Part shown: positions 5,038 to 38,821 of the stretch, one piece after another
How positions within the stretch are numbered: the stretch's first letter is position 1
How the letters are laid out: the number at the start of each line of letters is the position of its first letter
DNA from: Acidobacteria bacterium 13_1_20CM_3_53_8
GTDB lineage: Bacteria > Acidobacteriota > Blastocatellia > Pyrinomonadales > Pyrinomonadaceae
Length of the DNA: 64,000 bases
Assembly: GCA_001920415.1 (NCBI GenBank)
Contig: MNJR01000064.1
Location: 1 to 64,000, forward strand
Direction of reading: 5' to 3'
Notes under the pieces: generated by a model
Seen by the model: the letters and a program-made list of their open reading frames with translations, nothing else
Database searches by the model: none
What the model was told of the DNA's origin: nothing
Position numbers and translations under genes: made by a program

Positions 5038-6933
5038 CTAATTATTCCTCTCTTCATATTTAACTTCAAAACTTTTCTTCCTTAATCCCGACCACAACAT
5101 CACAGCAGAACAGTAGAGCGTTACTGCGACCAGCATGAAGAGAAAATAGTTGACGGCCAGCACGTATCTGTACTCTGTGTGAAGGGGCGATTGAAAACAG
5201 AAGTAATAGAAAGGCACGGCCAGCACTATGATGACTGCGCGAAAGAGCCTGCCGCGAATCAGCAACAGAAGTCCTATCAATTCGAGCGGGAGCATGACGG
5301 CTGTGAGGTAAAGCTGCTGCGCCGCGTGAACCAGCATGCGTGGGTAACGCGTCCAGAGTAGAGATGCAGACCCAAGATGGAACAATTCAACACGCCCCAG
5401 TTCAGCCGCCACCTGCGGAGGTTTCGCATCGCCTCTGACAAGCGCCACTCGCACCTCGTTCGTGTTATAGCTAACGAAAGCTATCTCGGCTGTGGTCACG
5501 GGCTGCTCCGTCAATGCCGCGTCCTGCTCAGTATGAAGCACAGGCGTTGCTCCCAAAAGTCTCTTCTGCGTAGCGTCCGTCACGCTTAGAATAGCGCCGC
5601 CTTGCTCCACCTTAACGGGAATCCTGAGCACGTAATCGCTGTTTCTTTCAACTGCAACGGGCGGCGAGGTGAACAGAGTTCCCGCTGAACTGCCGTCGCT
5701 GACTACGCGCAGTGCTTGTCCATCGTCTGCCGTAGAAGCTTCAACACCCTGCGCGATCATTACGCCGTTCGTCATCAGTTCCGCAGCAGATGCAGACCAT
5801 GCGGGCGTTGCGCCGGATGCCACGAACGGAGAATGCGTCACGGGCGCTTCCGGCGAGATGCGACGCGACCGCTCAAGTCTGAACATGGAAGAGCCGCGCC
5901 GTAGCATTATGGATAAGAACCAAACGGGATGTGATTTAATCACACTGAAGCCGCGTGCCAGACGCATGCGCTCGCGCCGGACGCCATCCGGGTTGAAAAG
6001 TGTGCTGTAATAATCGGGGCGATTGTTAAGTTCAGCTTCCATCCTCATCACGCCCATGTCCGTCGCTGGCATTCCGAATCTTCCTTCATGGTCGTAATCG
6101 GCTATGCCTTCAATCAAGGTCTGGCCTGCGCCTAGCGAGACAGGGACGAAGTAGCCAAGCACCACAGCGTTTCTTATTGTGAGCGGCGCGATGACAAGTA
6201 GAGCGCCGCAAAGAATCGCCGCTGAAGATTTCAATCGCATGCCGCGCTCGAACAGTATTAGAGCAACGGCGGCGAGCATGGGCGCAAAGAAAAGAGCATT
6301 TGCCCTCAACCAGCATGAAACACCTACAAGCGCGCCTGCGATTATCAGCGTCACAAGTCGAGGGCGTTTGATTGCGCGCACTAACAAATAGACTGCTAGA
6401 ATAATTGGAAGAACTGCCAGAGAATCTGGCAGCAGCAGCACAGAGTTGTAAGAAAGCTGAGGCGCGAGCGCTACGAGTATTCCTGCCGTGACGGCGATTC
6501 CTGTGGGCAGCAGTTCCCCAACAATTAAGAAAATAAATACGGCGGCCACAGAGTCGCAGACCACCTGCACGAACTGAATAGTCGCGTCCCCTTCACCGAA
6601 AAATCTGTAAATAGCCGCGAGCAGGAATGAATAGCCGGGCGGATGTCCCAGCCTGTTCGGATCACTCAAGGGCGATCCTTTGGCGAAGAATGAGCCGAAC
6701 CCGTCACGCGAAATGAGTCGCGCCGCCTGCCTGTAATCTTCCGAAACCCACGTTTGAACTTTTTCGACATCAAGCCGCGTGTCCTGCCACGAGAAGATTC
6801 TGACCGTGAGCGCGACCAGAAATATCAGGGCGATTATGGCCGAGAGCGTTGCAAATGATTTCGTAGACGCGACTGGCGCGTTCGTGTCCGCATGAACATA
6901 CAGTCGCTTCAATGTTTGACTAAGCAAACTCAT
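5038..6933 (-). CDS. Integral membrane glycosyltransferase, GT39/PMT-like (PMT_2)
   Basis: 631-residue polytopic membrane protein predicted to transfer a sugar from a polyprenyl-phosphate donor on the periplasmic side. After a short cytoplasmic N-terminus there is a first membrane helix (about 27-48), then a periplasmic loop with HPPGYSFLLAAIYRFFG (about 96-112), typical of the ArnT/PMT_2 fold, and a series of hydrophobic helices up to about residue 275. A large extracytoplasmic domain (about 290-520, beta-rich) follows, then two or three more helices near the C-terminus. It sits alone between two palindromic repeats. The acceptor is unknown; a role in glycan or lipid decoration is inferred from context. 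Confidence 0.85.
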   Translation of the reverse strand: MSLLSQTLKRLYVHADTNAPVASTKSFATLSAIIALIFLVALTVRIFSWQDTRLDVEKVQTWVSEDYRQAARLISRDGFGSFFAKGSPLSDPNRLGHPPGYSFLLAAIYRFFGEGDATIQFVQVVCDSVAAVFIFLIVGELLPTGIAVTAGILVALAPQLSYNSVLLLPDSLAVLPIILAVYLLVRAIKRPRLVTLIIAGALVGVSCWLRANALFFAPMLAAVALILFERGMRLKSSAAILCGALLVIAPLTIRNAVVLGYFVPVSLGAGQTLIEGIADYDHEGRFGMPATDMGVMRMEAELNNRPDYYSTLFNPDGVRRERMRLARGFSVIKSHPVWFLSIMLRRGSSMFRLERSRRISPEAPVTHSPFVASGATPAWSASAAELMTNGVMIAQGVEASTADDGQALRVVSDGSSAGTLFTSPPVAVERNSDYVLRIPVKVEQGGAILSVTDATQKRLLGATPVLHTEQDAALTEQPVTTAEIAFVSYNTNEVRVALVRGDAKPPQVAAELGRVELFHLGSASLLWTRYPRMLVHAAQQLYLTAVMLPLELIGLLLLIRGRLFRAVIIVLAVPFYYFCFQSPLHTEYRYVLAVNYFLFMLVAVTLYCSAVMLWSGLRKKSFEVKYEERNN

Positions 6934-7001
6934 GGGCGATAGTCTCTGAGGCCGGGTTGTTAAATCGGCCTGCGTATCTTATCAGAATGAAACGCTAGAC
7001 G

Positions 7002-7126
7002 CCTTAGCGAGCTTTGCTCTTTTCTTTGCGCCTTTGCGAGAACCTTCAATTCTCTTGATACTTAAGATTCATGTGAATTGCAGGTTCTCGCAAAGGCGCA
7101 AAGGGAAATACTTAAGCTCGCTAAGG
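7002..7126. repeat. Long palindrome, GCGCCTTTGCG family, copy 2
   Basis: The outer arms CCTTAGCGAGCTT and AAGCTCGCTAAGG are perfect inverted repeats. The inner arms TTTGCGCCTTTGCGAGAACC and its complement flank an AT-rich centre. This is the best-preserved copy. It lies between two divergently oriented genes, so it may hold promoter elements for one of them; none is clear. Confidence 0.88.
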
Positions 7127-7160
7127 AGATTTTGAAAAGCGCTCTTAGTATTCCGACAAG

Positions 7161-9314
7161 ATGAAACAGATTCTTAGAGATTCAAAGACTGGCGAAGTGA
7201 GAGTCGCGGACGTGCCCGCGCCCGTAGCGCAAAGGGGGCGCGTGCTGGTTCGCACGCACGCTTCGTTGATAAGCGCTGGCACTGAGCGCATGGCCCTTGA
7301 CGCGGGCAAGAAGAGTTTGCTTGGCCGTGCGCGCGAGAATCCAGACCTTGTAAGACAGGTGATTGAGAGGGCGAAGAACGAGGGCGTCATCAACACAGTC
7401 AACGCAGTGCTCGCAAAACTCGGCTCGTTCTCATCGCTAGGCTACAGTGCTTCCGGCATCGTCGTTAATGTAGGTGATGATGTCACAAACTTTCGCGTCG
7501 GCGACCGCGTTGCGTGCGCAGGTCTGGGATTCGCTTCGCATGCAGAAGTCCTTTCGGTTCCGAAGAACCTATGCGTGCGCATGCCTGATGAAATCAGTTT
7601 CGACGAGGCAGCTTTCGGCACGCTCGGCGCTATTGCGCTTCAGGGCGTGCGTCTGGCAGAGCCTACGTTGGGGGAATCGGTCGTTGTAATCGGTCTGGGA
7701 TTGATAGGCCAGATAACAGTTCAACTATTAAAGGCCAACGGCTGCCGCGTCTTCGGAATTGACCTGGACGAGAAGAAGATTGAGTTGGCCCAATCGTTAG
7801 GCGCAGACGGCTGCGGAGTGTCGGACGACGACATCAAGAGAAGAGTCGCAGAGTGGACGCGCGGGCGCGGCGCAGATGCTGTCGTCATCACTGCGGCCAC
7901 AGCGTCTAACCAGCCAGTAGAACTCGCTGGCGAGATTTCAAGAATGAAAGGGCGCGTCGTAGCAGTCGGCATGGTTGGCACGAACGTTCCGCGCGATATT
8001 TATTACAGGCGCGAGTTGACGCTGAAAATTTCTATGTCATACGGGCCCGGTCGTTACGATCCTGAGTATGAAGAGCGCGGGCACGATTACCCGTTTGCAT
8101 ACGTGCGCTGGACAGAGGGGCGCAACATAGAATCTTTTCTGGATTTGATTGCAACGGGTCGCGTCAACGTCGAGCGACTAATAACACACCGCTTCTCAGT
8201 CGAAGATGGCGAGCGCGCTTACCAGTTAATAACGGGCGAATTGAAAGAGCCTTATCTTGGCGTAGTCTTGCAGTATGACGCTGAGCGCGAGCTTCCCCGG
8301 CGCATAGAGATTTCGGGGAAGACCAAAACCTCTACGTCTGCGAAGAACGTTCGCATAGGTATGATTGGGGCGGGCAACTACGCTAAAGGAATGCTCCTGC
8401 CGAATTTCAAGTCTGCGGGCGCGGAGTTTCAATCAATCGCTACGGCTTCAGGCATCACGGCGCGCGAGATTGGCGAGCGCTACGGTTTCCGCCACTGCGT
8501 TTCGGGCGCGTATGAAGTTATTGAAGAAAAGGATGTGAACCTTGTGGTGATAGCGACGCGCCATGATCTTCACGCGGAGCTTGCGCGTCGCGCGCTTGAG
8601 CTAGGTCGTCACGTCTTTGTCGAAAAACCGCTCGCGCTAAATGACAAAGAGCTTGACGGTGTTATGCTTGCGGCCAATCAGTCTGAAGGGCGATTGATGG
8701 TCGGATTCAACCGGCGTTTCTCGCCGCTCGCTCGCGCCGCGAAACAGTTTTTCGACGGGCGCAGCGACCCGCTCTCAATCAGCTACCGCGTGAACGCAGG
8801 TCGCATCCCGCGCTCATCATGGATTCAAGATGCGCGCGAAGGCGGCGGTCGCATCATAGGCGAAGTCTGCCACTTCGTTGACTTCATGCAATTCTTAACA
8901 GGCTCGCTCACAACACGCGTCTACGCCGAATCAATCACAAGCCGCAACCAAGAGATAGTTGATGAAGATTCCGTCTTCATAACGTTGCGATTTGCAGACG
9001 GCTCGAACGGCTCAATCGCTTACATAGCGGAAGGCAATAAGGCCATGCCTAAAGAGCGCATAGAAATTTTCGGCGGCGGTAAAAGTTTTATGCTGGATGA
9101 TTTTCGCAATGCGATCTCTTACAAAGATGGGCGTGAAGAGAAGACCAAGCTTCGCATGCAGGACAAGGGACAAAGAGACGAAGTGCGCGCCGTATTCAAC
9201 GTAGTGCTCGAAGGCAGCGACGCTCCCATAGCTCTAGAAGACCTTGCAACCACGACGCGCGCCACGTTCCGCATTAGAGAGTCATTGCGTACAAGGTTGC
9301 CTGTGGGAGTTTAA
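7161..9314 (+). CDS. Bi-domain oxidoreductase: MDR alcohol dehydrogenase-like + Gfo/Idh/MocA
   Basis: 717 residues, a fusion of two dehydrogenase modules. The N-terminal half (about 1-370) is a medium-chain zinc-type dehydrogenase fold with the nucleotide-binding motif VIGLGLIGQ (about 176-184) and an acidic residue after the second strand (FGIDLDE). The C-terminal half (about 395-715) is a Gfo/Idh/MocA oxidoreductase with GMIGAGNYAKGMLLP and the substrate-pocket motif EKPLALN. Such fusions occur in exopolysaccharide clusters beside heparinase-like lyases and AsnB enzymes, as here, and probably oxidise or reduce a sugar intermediate; the reaction is not established. It is the only plus-strand gene in this part of the cluster and converges on asnB. 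No clear ribosome binding site. Confidence 0.9.
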   Translation: MKQILRDSKTGEVRVADVPAPVAQRGRVLVRTHASLISAGTERMALDAGKKSLLGRARENPDLVRQVIERAKNEGVINTVNAVLAKLGSFSSLGYSASGIVVNVGDDVTNFRVGDRVACAGLGFASHAEVLSVPKNLCVRMPDEISFDEAAFGTLGAIALQGVRLAEPTLGESVVVIGLGLIGQITVQLLKANGCRVFGIDLDEKKIELAQSLGADGCGVSDDDIKRRVAEWTRGRGADAVVITAATASNQPVELAGEISRMKGRVVAVGMVGTNVPRDIYYRRELTLKISMSYGPGRYDPEYEERGHDYPFAYVRWTEGRNIESFLDLIATGRVNVERLITHRFSVEDGERAYQLITGELKEPYLGVVLQYDAERELPRRIEISGKTKTSTSAKNVRIGMIGAGNYAKGMLLPNFKSAGAEFQSIATASGITAREIGERYGFRHCVSGAYEVIEEKDVNLVVIATRHDLHAELARRALELGRHVFVEKPLALNDKELDGVMLAANQSEGRLMVGFNRRFSPLARAAKQFFDGRSDPLSISYRVNAGRIPRSSWIQDAREGGGRIIGEVCHFVDFMQFLTGSLTTRVYAESITSRNQEIVDEDSVFITLRFADGSNGSIAYIAEGNKAMPKERIEIFGGGKSFMLDDFRNAISYKDGREEKTKLRMQDKGQRDEVRAVFNVVLEGSDAPIALEDLATTTRATFRIRESLRTRLPVGV

Positions 9315-31106: not shown

Positions 31107-31256
31107 AGTGACGAGTGACAAGTGACAAGTGACAAGCAAGAATCACTTTTAATTTTTCATTCAGATTAATAAATAGAAGTAATCAGCTTCTTTCTGTAAA
31201 CTTAAAAGATTGAATTAAAGATTAAAAATTCTTTCTTGCTCGTCACTTGTCGCTGC
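31107..31256. repeat. Heptamer palindrome, AGTGACA family, copy 1
   Basis: AGTGACG AGTGACA AGTGACA AGTGACA on the left; the complementary TCACTTG-type arm follows after an AT-rich spacer. The right arm supplies the last residues and the TGA stop of queF on the minus strand. Confidence 0.87.
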
Positions 31257-31704
31257 TCTTATAGCTTGCGCGCACGGTCGTCTTAATGTTGCCGCGCACG
31301 TTGAAGTCGCCTTCGATCTCTACGGCGCGGGGATCGCAGGCGCGCACGAAGTCTTCCAGGATGATGTTGATGACGTGCTCGTGAAAAATTTTTATCTGCC
31401 GAAACGAGTTGATGTAAAGCTTCAGACTCTTCAATTCTACGCAACGCTCGTTCGGCACATACTCAAGGCGTATCGTTGCGAAATCGGGAAAGTCCGAGAA
31501 CGGGCAGACGCATGTAAACTCCGGCATCTCGAATTTTATTCTTATCTCACGCCCCACGAACTCGTACGGGAAAGTGTCCAGCGGGTACAGATTCATCTCC
31601 TCGCGCGGCGTCGAGCGTATATCAAGCCCTTGTTGGTTCGCGTGTGGAAGCTCTTTCTCTGAAATAGCCATTCTTGAATTCCTGCTCCTTAAAGCTTGAG
31701 TCAT
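31243..31704 (-). CDS. queF: 7-cyano-7-deazaguanine (preQ0) reductase, QueF type I
   Basis: 153 residues, size of the unimodular NADPH-dependent nitrile reductase making preQ1 for queuosine. The active-site region is CPFSDFPDF (about 69-77), with the catalytic Cys and the conserved Asp of the PDF segment. The NADPH-recognition motif ELKSLKLY (about 90-97) is present. The tail KSSDK is encoded by a heptamer repeat, so the C-terminus may have been replaced. An internal start at M12 (31671) is possible. No other queuosine genes are seen nearby. Confidence 0.93.
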
Positions 31705-31811
31705 AAATCTTACCTAAGTGCGGCGCATATCAGCAACCAAAGTTGATGAAGGTTGACAGAAAAGCTGACGACTTCTCAACCGCAGAAAGCGTAATTATAG
31801 GGCATGACGCT

Positions 31812-31869
31812 GCATAACACTCCAAATGAGCGTGTTATACTGCCCTTAAGCCGTATCACTTAGTTATGC
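31812..31869 (+). other. attC-like recombination site 1
   Basis: A core pair GCATAAC (31812-31818) and GTTATGC (31863-31869) brackets an imperfectly palindromic stretch, with a weaker pairing of TGAGCG and CGTATCA. The layout fits the R''-L''-L'-R' plan of integron attC sites, but the inner boxes pair poorly, so on its own this site is weak. Confidence 0.5.
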
Positions 31870-31915
31870 GCTAGCTTGTTTAAATAACTGGGCGTACTAA
31901 AGGACTCAAAGTGAG

Positions 31916-32704
31916 ATGAAAGGAAAGAATCGAGGAATCAAACTATCTGAAGTATTACCCAATTTAAAAAAGGAGATTGAAAAGGCGGGCAAATCCATAA
32001 GACCGATAAATCAAAATTCACGATGGAGTAAAAAGCGTGCTTATACGTTGCTTCTTCTTGAGAATTACATTGAAGTGCTTTTAATATTTAAGAGGATTCT
32101 TGACAGCTTAAACGAGCTGGCAGATATAAAAAGTCGAGTAAAATTCGACGAAATCCCAGAAGACGAAAGGGCAGAAAGGGAGGCGCTTATGATGAGAACT
32201 TTTGATCTACTAGCATTCCTGCGGCTAGACATAAAAGCTCTATACATTTGGACGGCACAGATTACTGACATTTTTAAGGATAGCGGAGTGAAGATCGACC
32301 TAGAAGAACTAAACAGAATTTCTCTCTTCCGGCATAAGCTCATTACACATGTTCATGAGACGCCCTTCTTCAAATCTTCTCTAACAACGAAGTCAGGTAC
32401 AACTTATAATCCTAAAGAGGAATTTATCGAAGATATGTATCTTCCATTCGATTTTAGAAATAGTAGATTTGTTGGACTACAGACATTAGTAAGAAAAGCA
32501 ACTTCTTTTATACCTGAACTTGGGCAAGAGAAAAATCGCTTTGAAAGAATTAAGATTCTATACCGTCAAGTTAATAAAATTGCTGACAATGAGCTTAAAA
32601 GAAACGTGAAAAAGTTTATCTTCAAAGTTGGCCTTCCTACTGATTCACCAGGGATTATAGCAGTGGCTTTATTACAGGCGCTTAAGAACTATCGTCGTAG
32701 TTAG
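31916..32704 (+). CDS. Unknown cassette gene, 262 residues, charged helical
   Basis: An AT-rich gene (base composition unlike its neighbours), placed between two attC-like sites. The product is rich in Lys/Glu/Ile/Leu and apparently all-helical, with no signal or membrane segment, and resembles no family I know. An N-terminal positively charged stretch (MKGKNRGIKL) and a central YIWTAQITDIFKDSGV segment are visible. Its composition and position suggest acquisition as a gene cassette. AGGACTC and a weak AGTGAG lie before the ATG. A function cannot be named. Confidence 0.75.
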   Translation: MKGKNRGIKLSEVLPNLKKEIEKAGKSIRPINQNSRWSKKRAYTLLLLENYIEVLLIFKRILDSLNELADIKSRVKFDEIPEDERAEREALMMRTFDLLAFLRLDIKALYIWTAQITDIFKDSGVKIDLEELNRISLFRHKLITHVHETPFFKSSLTTKSGTTYNPKEEFIEDMYLPFDFRNSRFVGLQTLVRKATSFIPELGQEKNRFERIKILYRQVNKIADNELKRNVKKFIFKVGLPTDSPGIIAVALLQALKNYRRS

Positions 32705-32721
32705 GGTTTCTTTAATGTCGC

Positions 32722-32828
32722 GCATAACAACTCATTCAACCGGAGCGCGGATTGAATGGCTTTCATCATCGTTCTTCCGATGTGTATTGAATGCTGTTCG
32801 CCGCGCTCGGCTAATTCGGGCGTTAGCT
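32722..32828 (+). other. attC site 2 (integron-type recombination site)
   Basis: Good attC structure: R'' GCATAAC (32722-32728), spacer AACTC, L'' ATTCAACCGGAGCGCGG. After a variable loop comes CCGCGCTCGGCTAATTCGGGC, then R' GTTAGCT (32822-32828). The two strands pair with a single extrahelical G in the L'' arm (CCGGAGCGCGG against CCGAGCGCGG), the known hallmark of folded attC. The 107-bp size is usual for cassettes of chromosomal arrays. Confidence 0.85.
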
Positions 32829-32864
32829 GGCTCTCTTCAGCGCCGCAAATAGAGGTCATGGATT

Positions 32865-33413
32865 ATGATTACTGATAGAATACTGAACCTGTTTGTTCCC
32901 TCTCTCATTGCAATCATCTCCATCGTTATCTTTTTCCTTGTCCATCCAGCCCAAAAGTTCTCTTTCGTACCCGCAATGGTCGTGGCATTTGTTTGTTACT
33001 TGCTCACCAGCTATCGTGTGATGCCCAAAGTTGAGCGCGTTCTGCCCGTCTATCTAATCGCTCTTGCGATACAGTTCTTGCACTTCACAGAGGAATACGT
33101 TTACGGCTTTCAGTTCAAGGTCACTGAAATTATGGCTGGGATGCCTCCTTTCAATGTGAATGTGTTTGTGGCTTTCAATATGATTGCCTACTCTCTGTTC
33201 TTATTAGCTGGGATAGGGATGTATAAAGGAATGAAATTTCCAATGATTATTGTTTGGTTCTTTGCCATCTGTGTGATGGGCAACGCGATTTGGCATCTAC
33301 TGCTTACGCTCAGGGTCGGCGGCTATTTCCCCGGCTTGTACACCTCATTTGCAGGCTGGATTCTGGGGCCAATTCTCTTGAAGCGACTTTGGAGGCAAGA
33401 AAGCGTTGCCTGA
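32865..33413 (+). CDS. HXXEE-domain membrane protein
   Basis: 182 residues with about five to six membrane helices. The name-giving motif is HFTEE (about 71-75); a later NMIAYSLF and a further [12 protein letters not shown] segment are also typical of this family. Function unknown; often carried by cassettes and other mobile elements. AGAGGTC lies 8 nt before the ATG. It lies between an intact attC site and a half-site, so it was probably acquired as a gene cassette. Confidence 0.85.
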
Positions 33414-33419
33414 CGCCGA

Positions 33420-33441
33420 GCCTAACAACTCATTCAACGCG
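33420..33441 (+). other. Half attC-like site 3
   Basis: GCCTAAC AACTC ATTCAAC, matching the 5' half (R''-L'') of attC site 2, directly after the HXXEE stop codon. No matching R'/L' half (GTTAGGC) was found in the following 250 bp, so the site is truncated. This would be the right edge of the cassette array. Confidence 0.65.
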
Positions 33442-33669
33442 GACAGCTACACGCGAAAGCGTGATAGCAAAGATTGCATGCGCCGCATGGGACTGGAGCG
33501 TAAAGTCGCAGCAACGGATTCATTAGTGAACTGTAGGCGCTTGCGCCGCGCCGCAGATAATTCGCCAAATAAAGCGCGACGCGAGCGCCCCTCTCGTGAT
33601 ACTTTCTCTGCCCAGCCTGAACCATATCTCGCGCGCAGGCAGCTTCGTCCAGCGCTCGACAGGAGCATT

Positions 33670-34998
33670 ATGAAGACTACGACCAGATCAAACATTTCTA
33701 CTACTGATACCGCGACGCTTCCGGCGGGATCGGCAACCGAAGTGGGCGATCCGCTTGGCGGTGTGACGACCACTACAACTGATCGCCTTTCATCTAGTAC
33801 GACGCGGCGGCGTCTGGATTCGATTGACCTGCTGCGCGGGCTTGTGATGGTCATAATGATGCTGGATCACACGCGCGAGTTCTTTCACAGCGAGGTGCCG
33901 AACTTCGATCCGCTCAATCTGACGAAGACGAGCGCCATGCTCTTCTTCACCAGATGGATAACCCATTTCTGCGCTCCTGTCTTCGTCTTTCTAGCCGGCA
34001 CGGGCGCGTATCTTCAATTCTCGCGCGGCAAGAGCAAGACTGAATTGTCGAAATTCCTGGTCACGCGCGGCCTGTGGCTCGTCTTCCTTGAACTGACAGT
34101 TCTGCACGTTCTCATATGGTTCAACCTCGACTGGCACTTCGTAGGGTTGCTGCAAGTCATCTGGGCTATAGGAATTTCTATGATCTGTCTGGCTGCGCTG
34201 ATTCATCTGCCCGTGCGCGTCATTGCAGCGTTCGGCATCGCTATGATTGCGCTGCACAATCTTCTGGACAAGATTCAGGTGACACAATGGCAGGGGCCGG
34301 GCACGCCTACGCCCAATTTTTGGGAGGGCATCTGGATGGTGTTGCACCAGCCGGGAATAATCTTTTTCGGTGACGGAGTTTACGCGCTGGCTCTTTATAC
34401 GCTGATTCCCTGGATAGGAGTGATGGCTGCGGGTTACTCGTTCGGCGCGCTCTACAAAATTGAGGCTGAAAGACGCCGAAAGATTCTGCTCATGCTCGGC
34501 GGTGCGCTCACGCTTCTTTTCATCATCATTAGGGCTACGCGCCTTTATGGCGATCCGCAAGAGTGGAGCAGCCAGAAAAATCTTCTCTTCACTGTTCTCT
34601 CGTTTCTGAACGTCACGAAGTATCCGCCCTCGCTCTTATTCCTTTTGATGACGCTTGGGCCTGCCATAGCCGCGCTCGCAGTGTTCGAGAAGATGGGGCG
34701 TGGGCCAATCAGCCGCGCGCTGATTACGTTCGGGCGCGTGCCGCTCTTCTTCTACCTTTTGCAGTGGACGGCAGCGCACACGCTTGCGGTCATAGCAGGT
34801 TTACTGGCAGGACAGCCCGTCGCCTATCAATTCGTAGACATACTCAACAAGCCCCGTTCTAATCCCGGCAACTTCGGCTTCAGCCTCCCGGTCGTCTACA
34901 TCTTCTGGATTGCAGGCGTGGCTTTGCTCTATCCGCTATGTCGCTGGTTCGCGGGCGTGAAGCAGCGACGCAGGGATTGGTGGCTGAGTTATCTATGA
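33670..34998 (+). CDS. DUF1624 / heparan-alpha-glucosaminide N-acetyltransferase-like membrane protein
   Basis: 442 residues when started at the ATG preceded by an AGGAGC ribosome binding site 5 nt upstream; longer in-frame starts would add a low-complexity extension across the degenerate cassette edge. After a 60-residue Thr-rich cytoplasmic tail comes [20 protein letters not shown] (about 57-76), the DUF1624 signature with a conserved His/Asp, then about ten membrane helices. Related enzymes transfer acetyl groups across the membrane; the bacterial substrate is unknown, but glycan acetylation would fit the cell's polysaccharide metabolism. Confidence 0.85.
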
Positions 34999-35256: not shown

Positions 35257-36879
35257 ATGAGCAAAAAAATTTCCCTTTCACAATTCACGCACACATGGCG
35301 AGAGCTACGCTTCAAGCGTCTGGCTGAAGAGCGTTTCGACGTGCTTGTCATAGGCGGAGGAATTACAGGAGCCGCCGTTGCTCTCGACGCTTCGTGCGCG
35401 GGTCTAAGCTGCGCCCTCATAGAGCAGAATGATTTCGCAAGCGGCACGAGCAGCCGCTCTTCGCGTCTGATTCACGGCGGGCTGCGATACTTGAAGCAGG
35501 GGCAGGTTGGGCTGGTCTATCGCTCTGCGCGTGAACAGCAACGGCTAGCACTTCTTGCGCCTCATCTTGTGCGCCCTTTGAATCTACTCTTCCCTCTCTA
35601 CCAAAAATCTTTTACGAGCAGGCTGGCGCATCGCGGCGGGATGATTGCTTACTCGGCACTGCAACCCTTCGACTCGAAACTTCGACACCAAAGGTCTGGC
35701 GCGAAAGATTTGTTAAGCCTTGAGCCACAGCTACCCGCGAACGGATTACAGGACGGCTTCATCTGCCGCGAATACCTGACTCACGACGCGCGGCTTGTAC
35801 TGGAAACAACGCTGGCCGCTTGTAACGCGGGCGCGTGCGCCGTCAATTACGCGCGTGTCATGGACCTTCTTTTCTTACGTGGCCGCGTAGTCGGCGCTGT
35901 TGTGAATGATGAGATGACCGGGCGAAGCTTTGAGGTTCGCGCGCGTGTTGTGGTCAACGCGGCGGGGCCTTGGGCTGATCGTCTAATAAATCGCGCCGCT
36001 CAGGCGAAGCGCCGTCTCCGCCTGAGCAAAGGGGTTCATATAATCATCCCGCGCGAGATTTTGCCGCTTTCGCACGCTGTAATCTTCTTCTCTCGCAGAG
36101 ATGAAAGAGCGCTCGTTGCAATTCCGGCAGAAAACTTTGTAATGGTTGGGCCAACCGAAACCGAGTACGAAGGAGCGCCTGAGTGCGCCGCGCCCGAACG
36201 CGAAGATGTTGATTACCTGCTCGAAGCATTGCGTGATTTTTTCTCGCAATTGAAAATAGAGAATGAAGACGTTATAGCTGCGCGCGCAGGAGTGCGGCCA
36301 TTGTATGACAAGGGCGTGCGAGCGGCGGGCGAGGTCAGCCGCGCGTACCACATAGAATGGCAACGCGACAGGCTCCTATCAGTGCTCGGCGGAAAATTGA
36401 CGCTTCATCGCCGCGCGGCGGCTGTGACGACGCGTCTCTTAACGCGCGAGCTTAAAATCAATCCGGGCGTCGCCCGTCTGAATGCAACCAAAAATCCTTT
36501 GCCCGGCGCAAACTGGAAGAATTTTTCGGAGGAAGAGACGAAAGCTCTTCTCATGAGACTGAGTATCGAAGAAGAGAGCGCAGACCACTTGATTCGCGCT
36601 TACGGCAGCCGCTCGCTTCTGTTCGCTGACATGCTTACGGAAGAACGGGAACTCGCGCGACGCATTACCCCTTCTCTTCCGCACATCGCAGCCGAAGTAC
36701 CCTTCTCAATTCGTTACGAGATGGCCGTTCGCCCACAGGATTTTTTCGAGCGGCGCAGCGACCTTGCGCTCTGCCTGAAAGCCGAAGGCGAAACATGGCC
36801 GCACGAGTTGATGAAATTCTGGCACGAGCCGCGTGAAAAGTTTTTTCGAGCAGCGCAGACCGAAGAGGTTCTGGCATGA
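35257..36879 (+). CDS. glpD: FAD-dependent glycerol-3-phosphate dehydrogenase
   Basis: 540 residues; oxidises sn-glycerol-3-phosphate to dihydroxyacetone phosphate at the membrane and passes electrons to quinone. The FAD dinucleotide-binding motif is VLVIGGGITGAAVALDA (about 29-45). The conserved SSRSSRLIHGGLRYL follows at about 66-80, a catalytic-site His/Arg region. The C-terminal DAO_C-like domain (about 420-520) is full length, including ADMLTEERELARRITPSLPH. The stop overlaps the next ATG by 4 bp (ATGA), so the two are translationally coupled. Confidence 0.92.
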   Translation: MSKKISLSQFTHTWRELRFKRLAEERFDVLVIGGGITGAAVALDASCAGLSCALIEQNDFASGTSSRSSRLIHGGLRYLKQGQVGLVYRSAREQQRLALLAPHLVRPLNLLFPLYQKSFTSRLAHRGGMIAYSALQPFDSKLRHQRSGAKDLLSLEPQLPANGLQDGFICREYLTHDARLVLETTLAACNAGACAVNYARVMDLLFLRGRVVGAVVNDEMTGRSFEVRARVVVNAAGPWADRLINRAAQAKRRLRLSKGVHIIIPREILPLSHAVIFFSRRDERALVAIPAENFVMVGPTETEYEGAPECAAPEREDVDYLLEALRDFFSQLKIENEDVIAARAGVRPLYDKGVRAAGEVSRAYHIEWQRDRLLSVLGGKLTLHRRAAAVTTRLLTRELKINPGVARLNATKNPLPGANWKNFSEEETKALLMRLSIEEESADHLIRAYGSRSLLFADMLTEERELARRITPSLPHIAAEVPFSIRYEMAVRPQDFFERRSDLALCLKAEGETWPHELMKFWHEPREKFFRAAQTEEVLA

Positions 36880-37886
36880 AGGACGAAACGTTCCATTTTG
36901 AGGCCGCAATCAATCCTTACGGCTGCTCTGCGAAAGTTGTCGAAGCCGTCGAACGATTCGCGCGCTCGAAACAGTATCGCTTCTATGGCGAACCGGACGC
37001 GGCCAGTTTGCGCGAACTGCTTGCGGCTCATCACAATCTCTCGCCAGAAAATTTCGTAGTCTTCAACGGCGCAGGCGAAGCGCTCGCATGGACTTTTCTA
37101 CTAAACCTGGTCATGCGCCCCGGACGATTGATTGCGCCTCATCCGTCTTACGAACGTTTCGTAGAAGCTGGAAAGCGATATTCTGCGGAGTTGATTGAAG
37201 TCCCGCTCGACGAACAAAATTTCTCACTCTCCGTTAATGAGTTGATTGATGCGTGCCGGACGAGCCGCGCCACACTCGGACTCGTCAGCAATCCGAATAA
37301 CCCTTCCGGCAACACGCTCATTGACGAAGCTGGCATGGCGAAGCTTTTGGACGACACGCCCGATTGTTTATGGATTATAGACGAAGCTTATGCTGATTAC
37401 GCCGGGCTAAGTTTCGCGTCGTGGGTGCAAGAGCGCACGAATCTAATGGTGCTGCGAACCTTCTCGAAAGCTTACGGGCTGGCGGGTTTGCGTGTAGGGT
37501 GCGCTGTGGCTCACGCCTCAGTTGCCCAAAAATTGGCGCGTGTGCGCTTGCCTTGGGCTGTCAATTCCATGTCGCTTGCGGCGGCGCAGGCGGCCATTGA
37601 AGATCAAGATTACTTGAAAGAGATTTTAGGGCGAATACGCAACGATTGCGAAAATTTTTATTCCGAACTCTGCAAGATTCCTTTTTTCCACGTTCACCCT
37701 ACAGCGGCCAACTTCTTTCTCATACGACTGTCAGGCATTGAGCCATCACGTTTGAAAAAGCATCTCGCCGCGCACCGCATTCAAGTCAGAAGCCGCCCAG
37801 ATATGCCGGAGTACATTAGAATAACTTCAATGCTCCCGCAGGAAAATCAGCACTTGCTGAATGTCTTGCGCGAGTTCGAACCATAG
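36876..37886 (+). CDS. PLP-dependent class I/II aminotransferase, HisC/CobD-like
   Basis: 336 residues, fold type I. The N-terminal INPYGCSAKV motif is of the HisC/CobD group. SNPNNPSGN (about 136-144) is the PLP-region turn. The Lys Schiff-base segment is RTFSKAYGLAGLRVG (about 189-203), and the C-terminal Arg lies in YIRITSMLP. It may be a histidinol-phosphate aminotransferase or a threonine-phosphate decarboxylase; the short sequence without other his or cob genes leaves this open. Overlaps glpD by 4 bp, an unusual coupling. Start is the ATG of the ATGA overlap. Confidence 0.87.
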   Translation: MKDETFHFEAAINPYGCSAKVVEAVERFARSKQYRFYGEPDAASLRELLAAHHNLSPENFVVFNGAGEALAWTFLLNLVMRPGRLIAPHPSYERFVEAGKRYSAELIEVPLDEQNFSLSVNELIDACRTSRATLGLVSNPNNPSGNTLIDEAGMAKLLDDTPDCLWIIDEAYADYAGLSFASWVQERTNLMVLRTFSKAYGLAGLRVGCAVAHASVAQKLARVRLPWAVNSMSLAAAQAAIEDQDYLKEILGRIRNDCENFYSELCKIPFFHVHPTAANFFLIRLSGIEPSRLKKHLAAHRIQVRSRPDMPEYIRITSMLPQENQHLLNVLREFEP

Positions 37887-38062: not shown

Positions 38063-38821
38063 TTAGTAGCCAACCGGCGCTTGCCCGCTTCCGCGACCGA
38101 TGGCAAAAAATTTGACGAGTATTAATCCGGCTATGAAGCCGCCAATGTGCGCGGCGTATGCTACGCCTCCGCCAGCCTCTGGCCCACCGCCTAGCGCTCC
38201 GAAACTTTCAATCAACTGCAACACGAACCAAAGCCCTATTGCCACGTAAGCCGGAACGGTCGTGATGAAGCGCACCAGAATGACGCGCACCTGATTGCGC
38301 GGGAAGAGCAGGATGTATCCGCCCAACACTCCAGAGATTGCGCCCGATGCGCCCAGACTTGGTATGTACGGATTCGCCCCGAACATTATCGTAGAGAAGA
38401 CGTGCGTGAGCGACGCTATCACGCCGCAGACAAGATAGAAGATTAAATACCTGGCGTGTCCGATTCTGTCTTCAACGTTGTCGCCAAAAATCCACAGGAA
38501 GAGCATGTTCCCGAAAATGTGCATGAAGCCGCCATGCATGAACATAGAGGTGATGAGCGTCAGATAGACTGAGCCGGGTGTTGGCTGAAGATCAATTCTG
38601 CCTACTTCCGCGCCCGCATCGCCCTGTATGACGACCGGGCGTGCAACGTCGCGCCCCGTCGCTATCTCTGCCGGCACGGTCGAGAACGCATACGTGAAGC
38701 GGTCGTTCGACCCAAACCCTTGCAGAAAGACGAAGACGAGCACGTTTATAGCTATGAGCAGGTAGTTCACAACGGGCGCGCTCGTTCGCCCTGTGTCATC
38801 GTCGCCAAGTGGGAAAATCAT
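38063..38821 (-). CDS. Rhomboid-family intramembrane serine protease
   Basis: 252 residues, six or seven membrane helices. The catalytic Ser is in GASGAISGVLGGY (about 160-172), GxSG form. The catalytic His lies in the helix with AYAAHIGGFIAGLIL (about 222-236). The loop motif MFMHGGFMHIFGNMLFLW (about 93-110), with HxxxN, is well conserved. Cleaves membrane proteins within the bilayer; physiological substrate unknown. Stands alone on the minus strand. Confidence 0.92.
   Translation of the reverse strand: MIFPLGDDDTGRTSAPVVNYLLIAINVLVFVFLQGFGSNDRFTYAFSTVPAEIATGRDVARPVVIQGDAGAEVGRIDLQPTPGSVYLTLITSMFMHGGFMHIFGNMLFLWIFGDNVEDRIGHARYLIFYLVCGVIASLTHVFSTIMFGANPYIPSLGASGAISGVLGGYILLFPRNQVRVILVRFITTVPAYVAIGLWFVLQLIESFGALGGGPEAGGGVAYAAHIGGFIAGLILVKFFAIGRGSGQAPVGY

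Follow-up and report, generated by a model that had tools for sequence, protein, structure and literature searches.

Between queF and a rhomboid protease gene, the window (the whole stretch of 64,000 nucleotides analysed here, from a soil member of Acidobacteriota) carries a small array of gene cassettes, in which an attI-like head, a cassette encoding a 262-aa protein, a cassette encoding an HXXEE protein, and a truncated attC follow one another in this order (Table 1). The left junction of the array is the recombination point G(31863)/TT within the R' box GTTATGC. This box is the exact reverse complement of the R'' box GCATAAC, both belonging to the first cassette, as expected for a single excisable unit. 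Both genes are co-directional with the attC, their stop codons lying 17 and 6 nt ahead of R'', and the GC content of the cassette stretch is 41.6% versus 52-54% in the flanks. Together with the family assignment of the HXXEE protein, this bears out an earlier note on this DNA, which had described two AT-rich, cassette-like genes.

The protein of the first cassette has no match in Pfam, NCBIfam, or PADLOC and no homologue in 60 relatives, in genome_contigs, or in plasmids; its AF2 model is mostly helical with a pLDDT of 53, and gave no usable fold match. A HEPN-like R-x5-H motif (RHKLITH) in this protein was a by-eye sighting only, is unsupported, and was set aside. The HXXEE protein shares 45% identity with a protein encoded on a Haloferax plasmid and is sparsely distributed, with distant matches in five other genomes of the phylum sample.

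In relatives, the gene order at this locus is NADK, a DAACS-type carrier (in most), rhomboid, queF, and MFS, and the gap between rhomboid and queF is as short as 36 bp in L168 (genome G025) and 224 bp in L165 (genome G197). In the window, 6.3 kb lie between the two genes, comprising the array and the HGSNAT-, GlpD-, and HisC-like genes; neither the array genes nor these three were found at the queF-rhomboid locus in relatives. In several further relatives the interval spans 0.7-4.9 kb, which makes this spot variable. No attC was found at queF-rhomboid in relatives, the sole matches lying 8-11 kb off, in L172. The window also contains imperfect dispersed repeats of ~145-155 bp (31106-31254/57119-57266, 28839-28982/37919-38062, and 6999-7151/16866-17019), which are MITE- or REP-like and have long inverted arms in at least one case.

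Table 1. Features of the cassette array and its chromosomal surroundings (positions in the window).
Feature	Position	Strand	Remarks
queF, left chromosomal flank	31243-31704	-	PF14489, E 5e-34; present in 29/30 genomes searched
attI-like head	31788-31869		resembles the divergent intI/attI intergenic region of Pyrinomonadaceae integrons
R' box GTTATGC	31863-31869	+	exact reverse complement of R'' at 32722
Cassette 1 (TTATGC ... attC ... G), 959 bp	31864-32822	+	limits from junction 31863 and attC 32722-32828
Cassette 1 gene, 262-aa protein	31916-32704	+	ORF; relatives not detected
Complete attC, 107 nt	32722-32828	+	structured on the bottom strand; 45.1 bits, E 5e-9
Cassette 2, 3' end truncated inside attC	32823-33443	+	starts TTAGCT at 32823; attC cut after ..AACGCGGAC at 33443
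Cassette 2 gene, HXXEE protein, 182 aa	32865-33413	+	PF13787, E 3e-7
Truncated attC (R'' GCCTAAC and L'' only)	33420-33443	+	R''-L'' score 26.0, second in the window
HGSNAT-type acyltransferase gene, first of three non-cassette insert genes	33670-34998	+	PF07786
GlpD-like gene, insert	35257-36879
HisC-like gene, insert	36876-37886
Rhomboid protease gene, right insert edge, ancestral queF neighbour	38063-38821	-	adjoins queF in relatives

attC sites in the window and across the family

The attC at 32722-32828 is genuine. Its R'' (32722-32728, GCATAAC), L'' (32734-32750), L' (32801-32815), and R' boxes (32822-32828, GTTAGCT) are in register, and the L''/L' stem has two extrahelical bases. For reference, we used 8 class 1 attCs, taken from annotated integrons, and others from intI-adjacent arrays in genomes of the same phylum. 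Of such sites, 18, with the window attC left out, went into a home-made covariance model of the bottom strand, distinct from that of IntegronFinder, with which we searched the 64 kb. The site aligned across all 60 model positions at 45.1 bits, versus 11.5 bits for the runner-up in the window, the same model giving 20-61 bits to sites of intI-linked arrays and 50-64 bits to class 1 sites. A sequence-plus-stem score amounts to 52.0 for this site, versus a maximum of 27.0 in 40 shuffled windows and 20.3 for the next independent site of the window, and contig C66 of this genome carries an attC that matches the site with 95.7% identity over 94 nt. When the bottom strand of the site is folded without constraints, its minimum-energy structure is an alternative to the canonical one (z -1.55), so that folding by itself would have missed it. 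Rfam at gathering thresholds returned only a tRNA and no attC in the window, and a plasmid BLAST with the attC region gave no match.

The half-site at 33420 represents an attC that stops past R''-L'': the R''-L'' score ranked directly below it in the window, both strands considered, is 18.0, and 20 of 22 nt are shared with 32719-32740, while no L'/R' partner was found. Both sites had been named as such in the earlier note, and its proposal that this lineage has captured cassettes agrees with the two tests attached to it, since the attC model scores the site at 32722 and the rhomboid gene of relatives adjoins queF without the array genes.

Across the genome, the covariance model detects ~91 attCs, 82 of which score at least 27 bits. 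They belong to a single homogeneous type specific to the family and are spread over ~20 contig regions, some wholly within contigs and many running off contig ends, and the combined size of the array contigs far exceeds the estimated contamination. All 39 records of genome_contigs that contain an exact 22-base attC core are from Acidobacteriota, Blastocatellia, or Pyrinomonadaceae, and attC matches were found in 46 of 60 genomes, this one counted. In arrays L089, L101, L095, and L096 of the same genome, we observed genes for TIR proteins, a CAP12/Pycsar-type TIR, an FRG-domain protein, an AAA_21/AAA_15 ATPase and, by eye, an Mrr-like endonuclease; these cassette genes are likely anti-phage defence cargo.

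Array heads and dispersed attI units

In the complete integrons of the family, the stretch from intI to the first cassette contains palindromes (TTAnnC..GnnTAA) that end about six bases ahead of TA/GTT, often with a mirrored copy facing intI. The window head is palindromic (GCATAACACTCC..GAGCGTGTTATAC) and has a right-going core CACTTA/GTTATGC. With an nhmmer profile of 11 intI-linked attIs, window excluded, its left-going (mirror) half scored 13.3 bits, the best match in the 64 kb, versus a maximum of 8.2 in 20 shuffled windows; its right-going, cassette-facing half scored only 4.3 bits, with the TA/GTT core present at the junction. A first attI PWM had not ranked the window junction, and the palindrome-aware profile ranked it via the mirror half. 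This left-going half is also found in L141, L155, L158, L160, L123, L131, L115, and L135, and BLAST aligns the window head to L160, L112, L123, and L131 with 88% identity over 26-27 nt. Among the heads examined, that of the window diverges most. Given its mirror half, its TA/GTT core, and its position, and with its right-going half weak, we designate the sequence at 31788-31869 as attI-like with moderate confidence. The site at 31812 that had previously been read as an attC has no L stem, leaves the attC model silent, and resembles the intI/attI region of the family, and we no longer count it as an attC.

Repeated attI units stand at the heads of other arrays of this genome. Group A heads (contigs C61, C103, C44, and C23) are 90-99% identical over ~110 nt, while group B heads (C60, C127, and C97) share a left edge and are 96-98% identical over 105-197 nt. 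The group A unit is 77% identical over 75 nt (E 2e-10) to an intI-linked attI of genome G404, and a genome-wide search with it gave eight matches of 79-100% identity (C61, C23, C44, C103, C152, C127, C97, and C60 of this genome, G000), all directly at array heads and none beside intI. The heads of C24 and G399_C67 are unlike the repeated units, and every array head of this genome with an assembled left flank is without intI. A recurring cassette of ~285 bp without obvious long ORF directly follows the attI unit in several arrays (L089:3492-4064 and 6827-7398; beside the unit in L101, L105, L097, and L100).

A comparable arrangement occurs in relatives that do have an integrase. Two copies of the intI-linked attI of G407 (93-94% over 91-100 nt) stand at the head of intI-less arrays on other contigs, and behind both comes a cassette with an R' that fits the following R''; a like pattern was recognized by eye in G419 (L182 vs L115 and L135); L115 and L135 were assigned to G419, and L112, L123, and L131 to G407, by identical sequences. 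Such copies at intI-less arrays, in genomes that have one intI-linked attI, suggest that several attI-headed arrays are served by one integrase in trans.

Integrase search and origin of the array

Neither the window nor the assembly contains a match over cut-off to the integron-integrase family TIGR02249, in keeping with the lack of a visible integrase noted before. The assembly has 13 matches to a generic tyrosine-recombinase family; its best TIGR02249 matches are split and under cut-off, with profile positions ~180-240 unmatched, and a family IntI query gave short matches only, in tyrosine-recombinase-type proteins. XerC/D-like proteins on C70 and C41 were ruled out as IntI, being below cut-off and missing the IntI-specific stretch. 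A tblastn search for intI relics near the arrays of this genome returned very weak matches only (best E 0.001, 22-26% identity). As the genome is a MAG (6.10 Mb in 155 contigs, 95.9% complete, 3.9% contamination), intI may have been lost or may be missing from the assembly. Among family genomes, intI over cut-off was detected in 16 of the 30 tested, with broken pieces in four; G197 (98% complete, 40 contigs) and G075 (100%, 60 contigs) possess many attCs, and intI was not found in them. The broken or split genes lie at G383:C6:448-1711, G403:C11:39-976, G413:C1068:2-836, and G399:C17:4999-5936. In the phylum sample, 113 of 396 genomes have intI over cut-off. With the attCs found genome-wide and the attI copies at other heads, the system is of wider scale than the single array described in the earlier note. 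We also noticed an identical intI at G396:C299:18949-19890 and G411:C216:18949-19890, with an attC at 36865-36951 in both, in supposedly different species; shared or cross-binned contigs are a possible explanation.

In established integron biology, IntI recombines attI, at G/TT, with the bottom strand of attC in its folded form, so that the cassette nearest the head is the last inserted. We consider it highly probable that the locus is a remnant or an outlying array of an integron system native to Pyrinomonadaceae. In this scenario, IntI, acting in trans or formerly in cis, would have joined the bottom-strand attC hairpin to the attI-type site between 31863 and 31864, and cassettes 1 and 2 would both have been inserted there, the attC of the last cassette having afterwards lost its 3' half. 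No intI adjoins the array now: either an intI left of 31788 would have been deleted, or IntI would have acted in trans from a locus since lost or unassembled. The sites, their boundaries, the insertion relative to relatives, and the dispersed attI-type heads are direct observations, whereas catalysis by IntI, the choice between deletion of intI and a supply always in trans, and any expression driven by the attI region are inferred.

The deletion version supposes that a complete integron stood here and that queF now abuts its intI/attI intergenic region. The divergent region is indeed kept to ~85 bp from the start of the queF ORF, where intI would begin, and broken intI genes occur in relatives (G383, G403, G399 C17, and G413). 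Against this, the search around the arrays of this genome turned up no intI fragment, and in G407 and G419 attI units of the same design head intI-less arrays beside an intact intI-linked attI elsewhere, so that intI need never have stood at the window locus; we therefore hold a deletion here to be possible, with the odds somewhat against it. It is compatible with an origin from a native integron system. A rival to that origin would be a classical CALIN, for which an IntI encoded elsewhere would have put the cassettes into some arbitrary site of the chromosome (attG), the likeness of the head to attI being coincidental. Off-target insertion is a known proposed route to CALINs (PMC8618304), and the divergence of the window head, as well as the heads of C24 and G399_C67 that differ from the repeated units, would fit it. 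Yet the divergent palindromic head, mirror half included, resembles intI-linked attI regions and is the best profile match in 64 kb, and the eight repeated attI units all stand at array heads, which makes insertion at an arbitrary site unlikely. A chance attC-like sequence that is no part of an integron has in its favor the non-canonical minimum-energy fold only, and is refuted by the 45.1 bits of the site, its 96% identity to another attC of the genome, the match of R' and R'', and two properly placed genes.

For the family as a whole, we lean slightly towards a distributed integron, in which arrays at separate loci would each have their own copy of the attI region (~100-195 nt), copied between loci, and would be served in trans by one IntI, none being assembled here. 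If true, attI-headed arrays at many loci would offer several first positions at once, changing cassette position, expression, and reshuffling, and would represent a new route to intI-less arrays. The data also provide attI sequences outside class 1 for a phylum common in soil, and likely anti-phage defence genes are among the cassettes.

Comparison with known integron systems

Acidobacteria were already known to have integrons, and attC models for these exist (PMC8618304; PMC8352920). An integron typically has a single attI located near the integrase, and attI is said to be poorly described outside class 1 (PMC9024848). A search of the literature, of which our coverage was partial, returned no relevant papers on multiple or orphan attI. 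The gene that marks a complete integron, intI with the IntI-specific region, is not found in this assembly.

CALINs average almost 6 attCs, their counts are inflated by draft genomes, and the default rule of IntegronFinder 2 calls for at least two attC sites (PMC9024848). The window array resembles a CALIN in its attC-bounded cassettes with no intI nearby, and differs from it by having one complete and one truncated attC and an attI-like head, which lies outside the CALIN definition. The earlier description of a CALIN-like array is thus retained as regards the missing integrase, and abandoned both for the strict CALIN of IntegronFinder 2, given a single complete attC, and for a left end formed by an attC, since the head of the array is attI-like.

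Like the sedentary chromosomal integrons of the Vibrio and Xanthomonas type, this genome has many homogeneous, lineage-specific attCs and cassette genes mostly co-directional with attC; in contrast, its attCs occupy ~20 contig regions, intI was not found, and many arrays have an attI-type head each, where the sedentary type has a single attI next to intI. With class 1 integrons (aadA, qacL, and cmlA1 cassettes), the window attC shares its architecture, its spacing, and two extrahelical positions, but its loop is longer (107 nt vs 60-70). The attI of class 1 integrons has R-like repeats upstream of the core, as does the attI-like head here, but differs in sequence, the palindromes being divergent here. 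Hence, the attC and cassettes are of a known kind, whereas multiple attI-headed arrays per genome, as seen in these MAGs, appear to be new.
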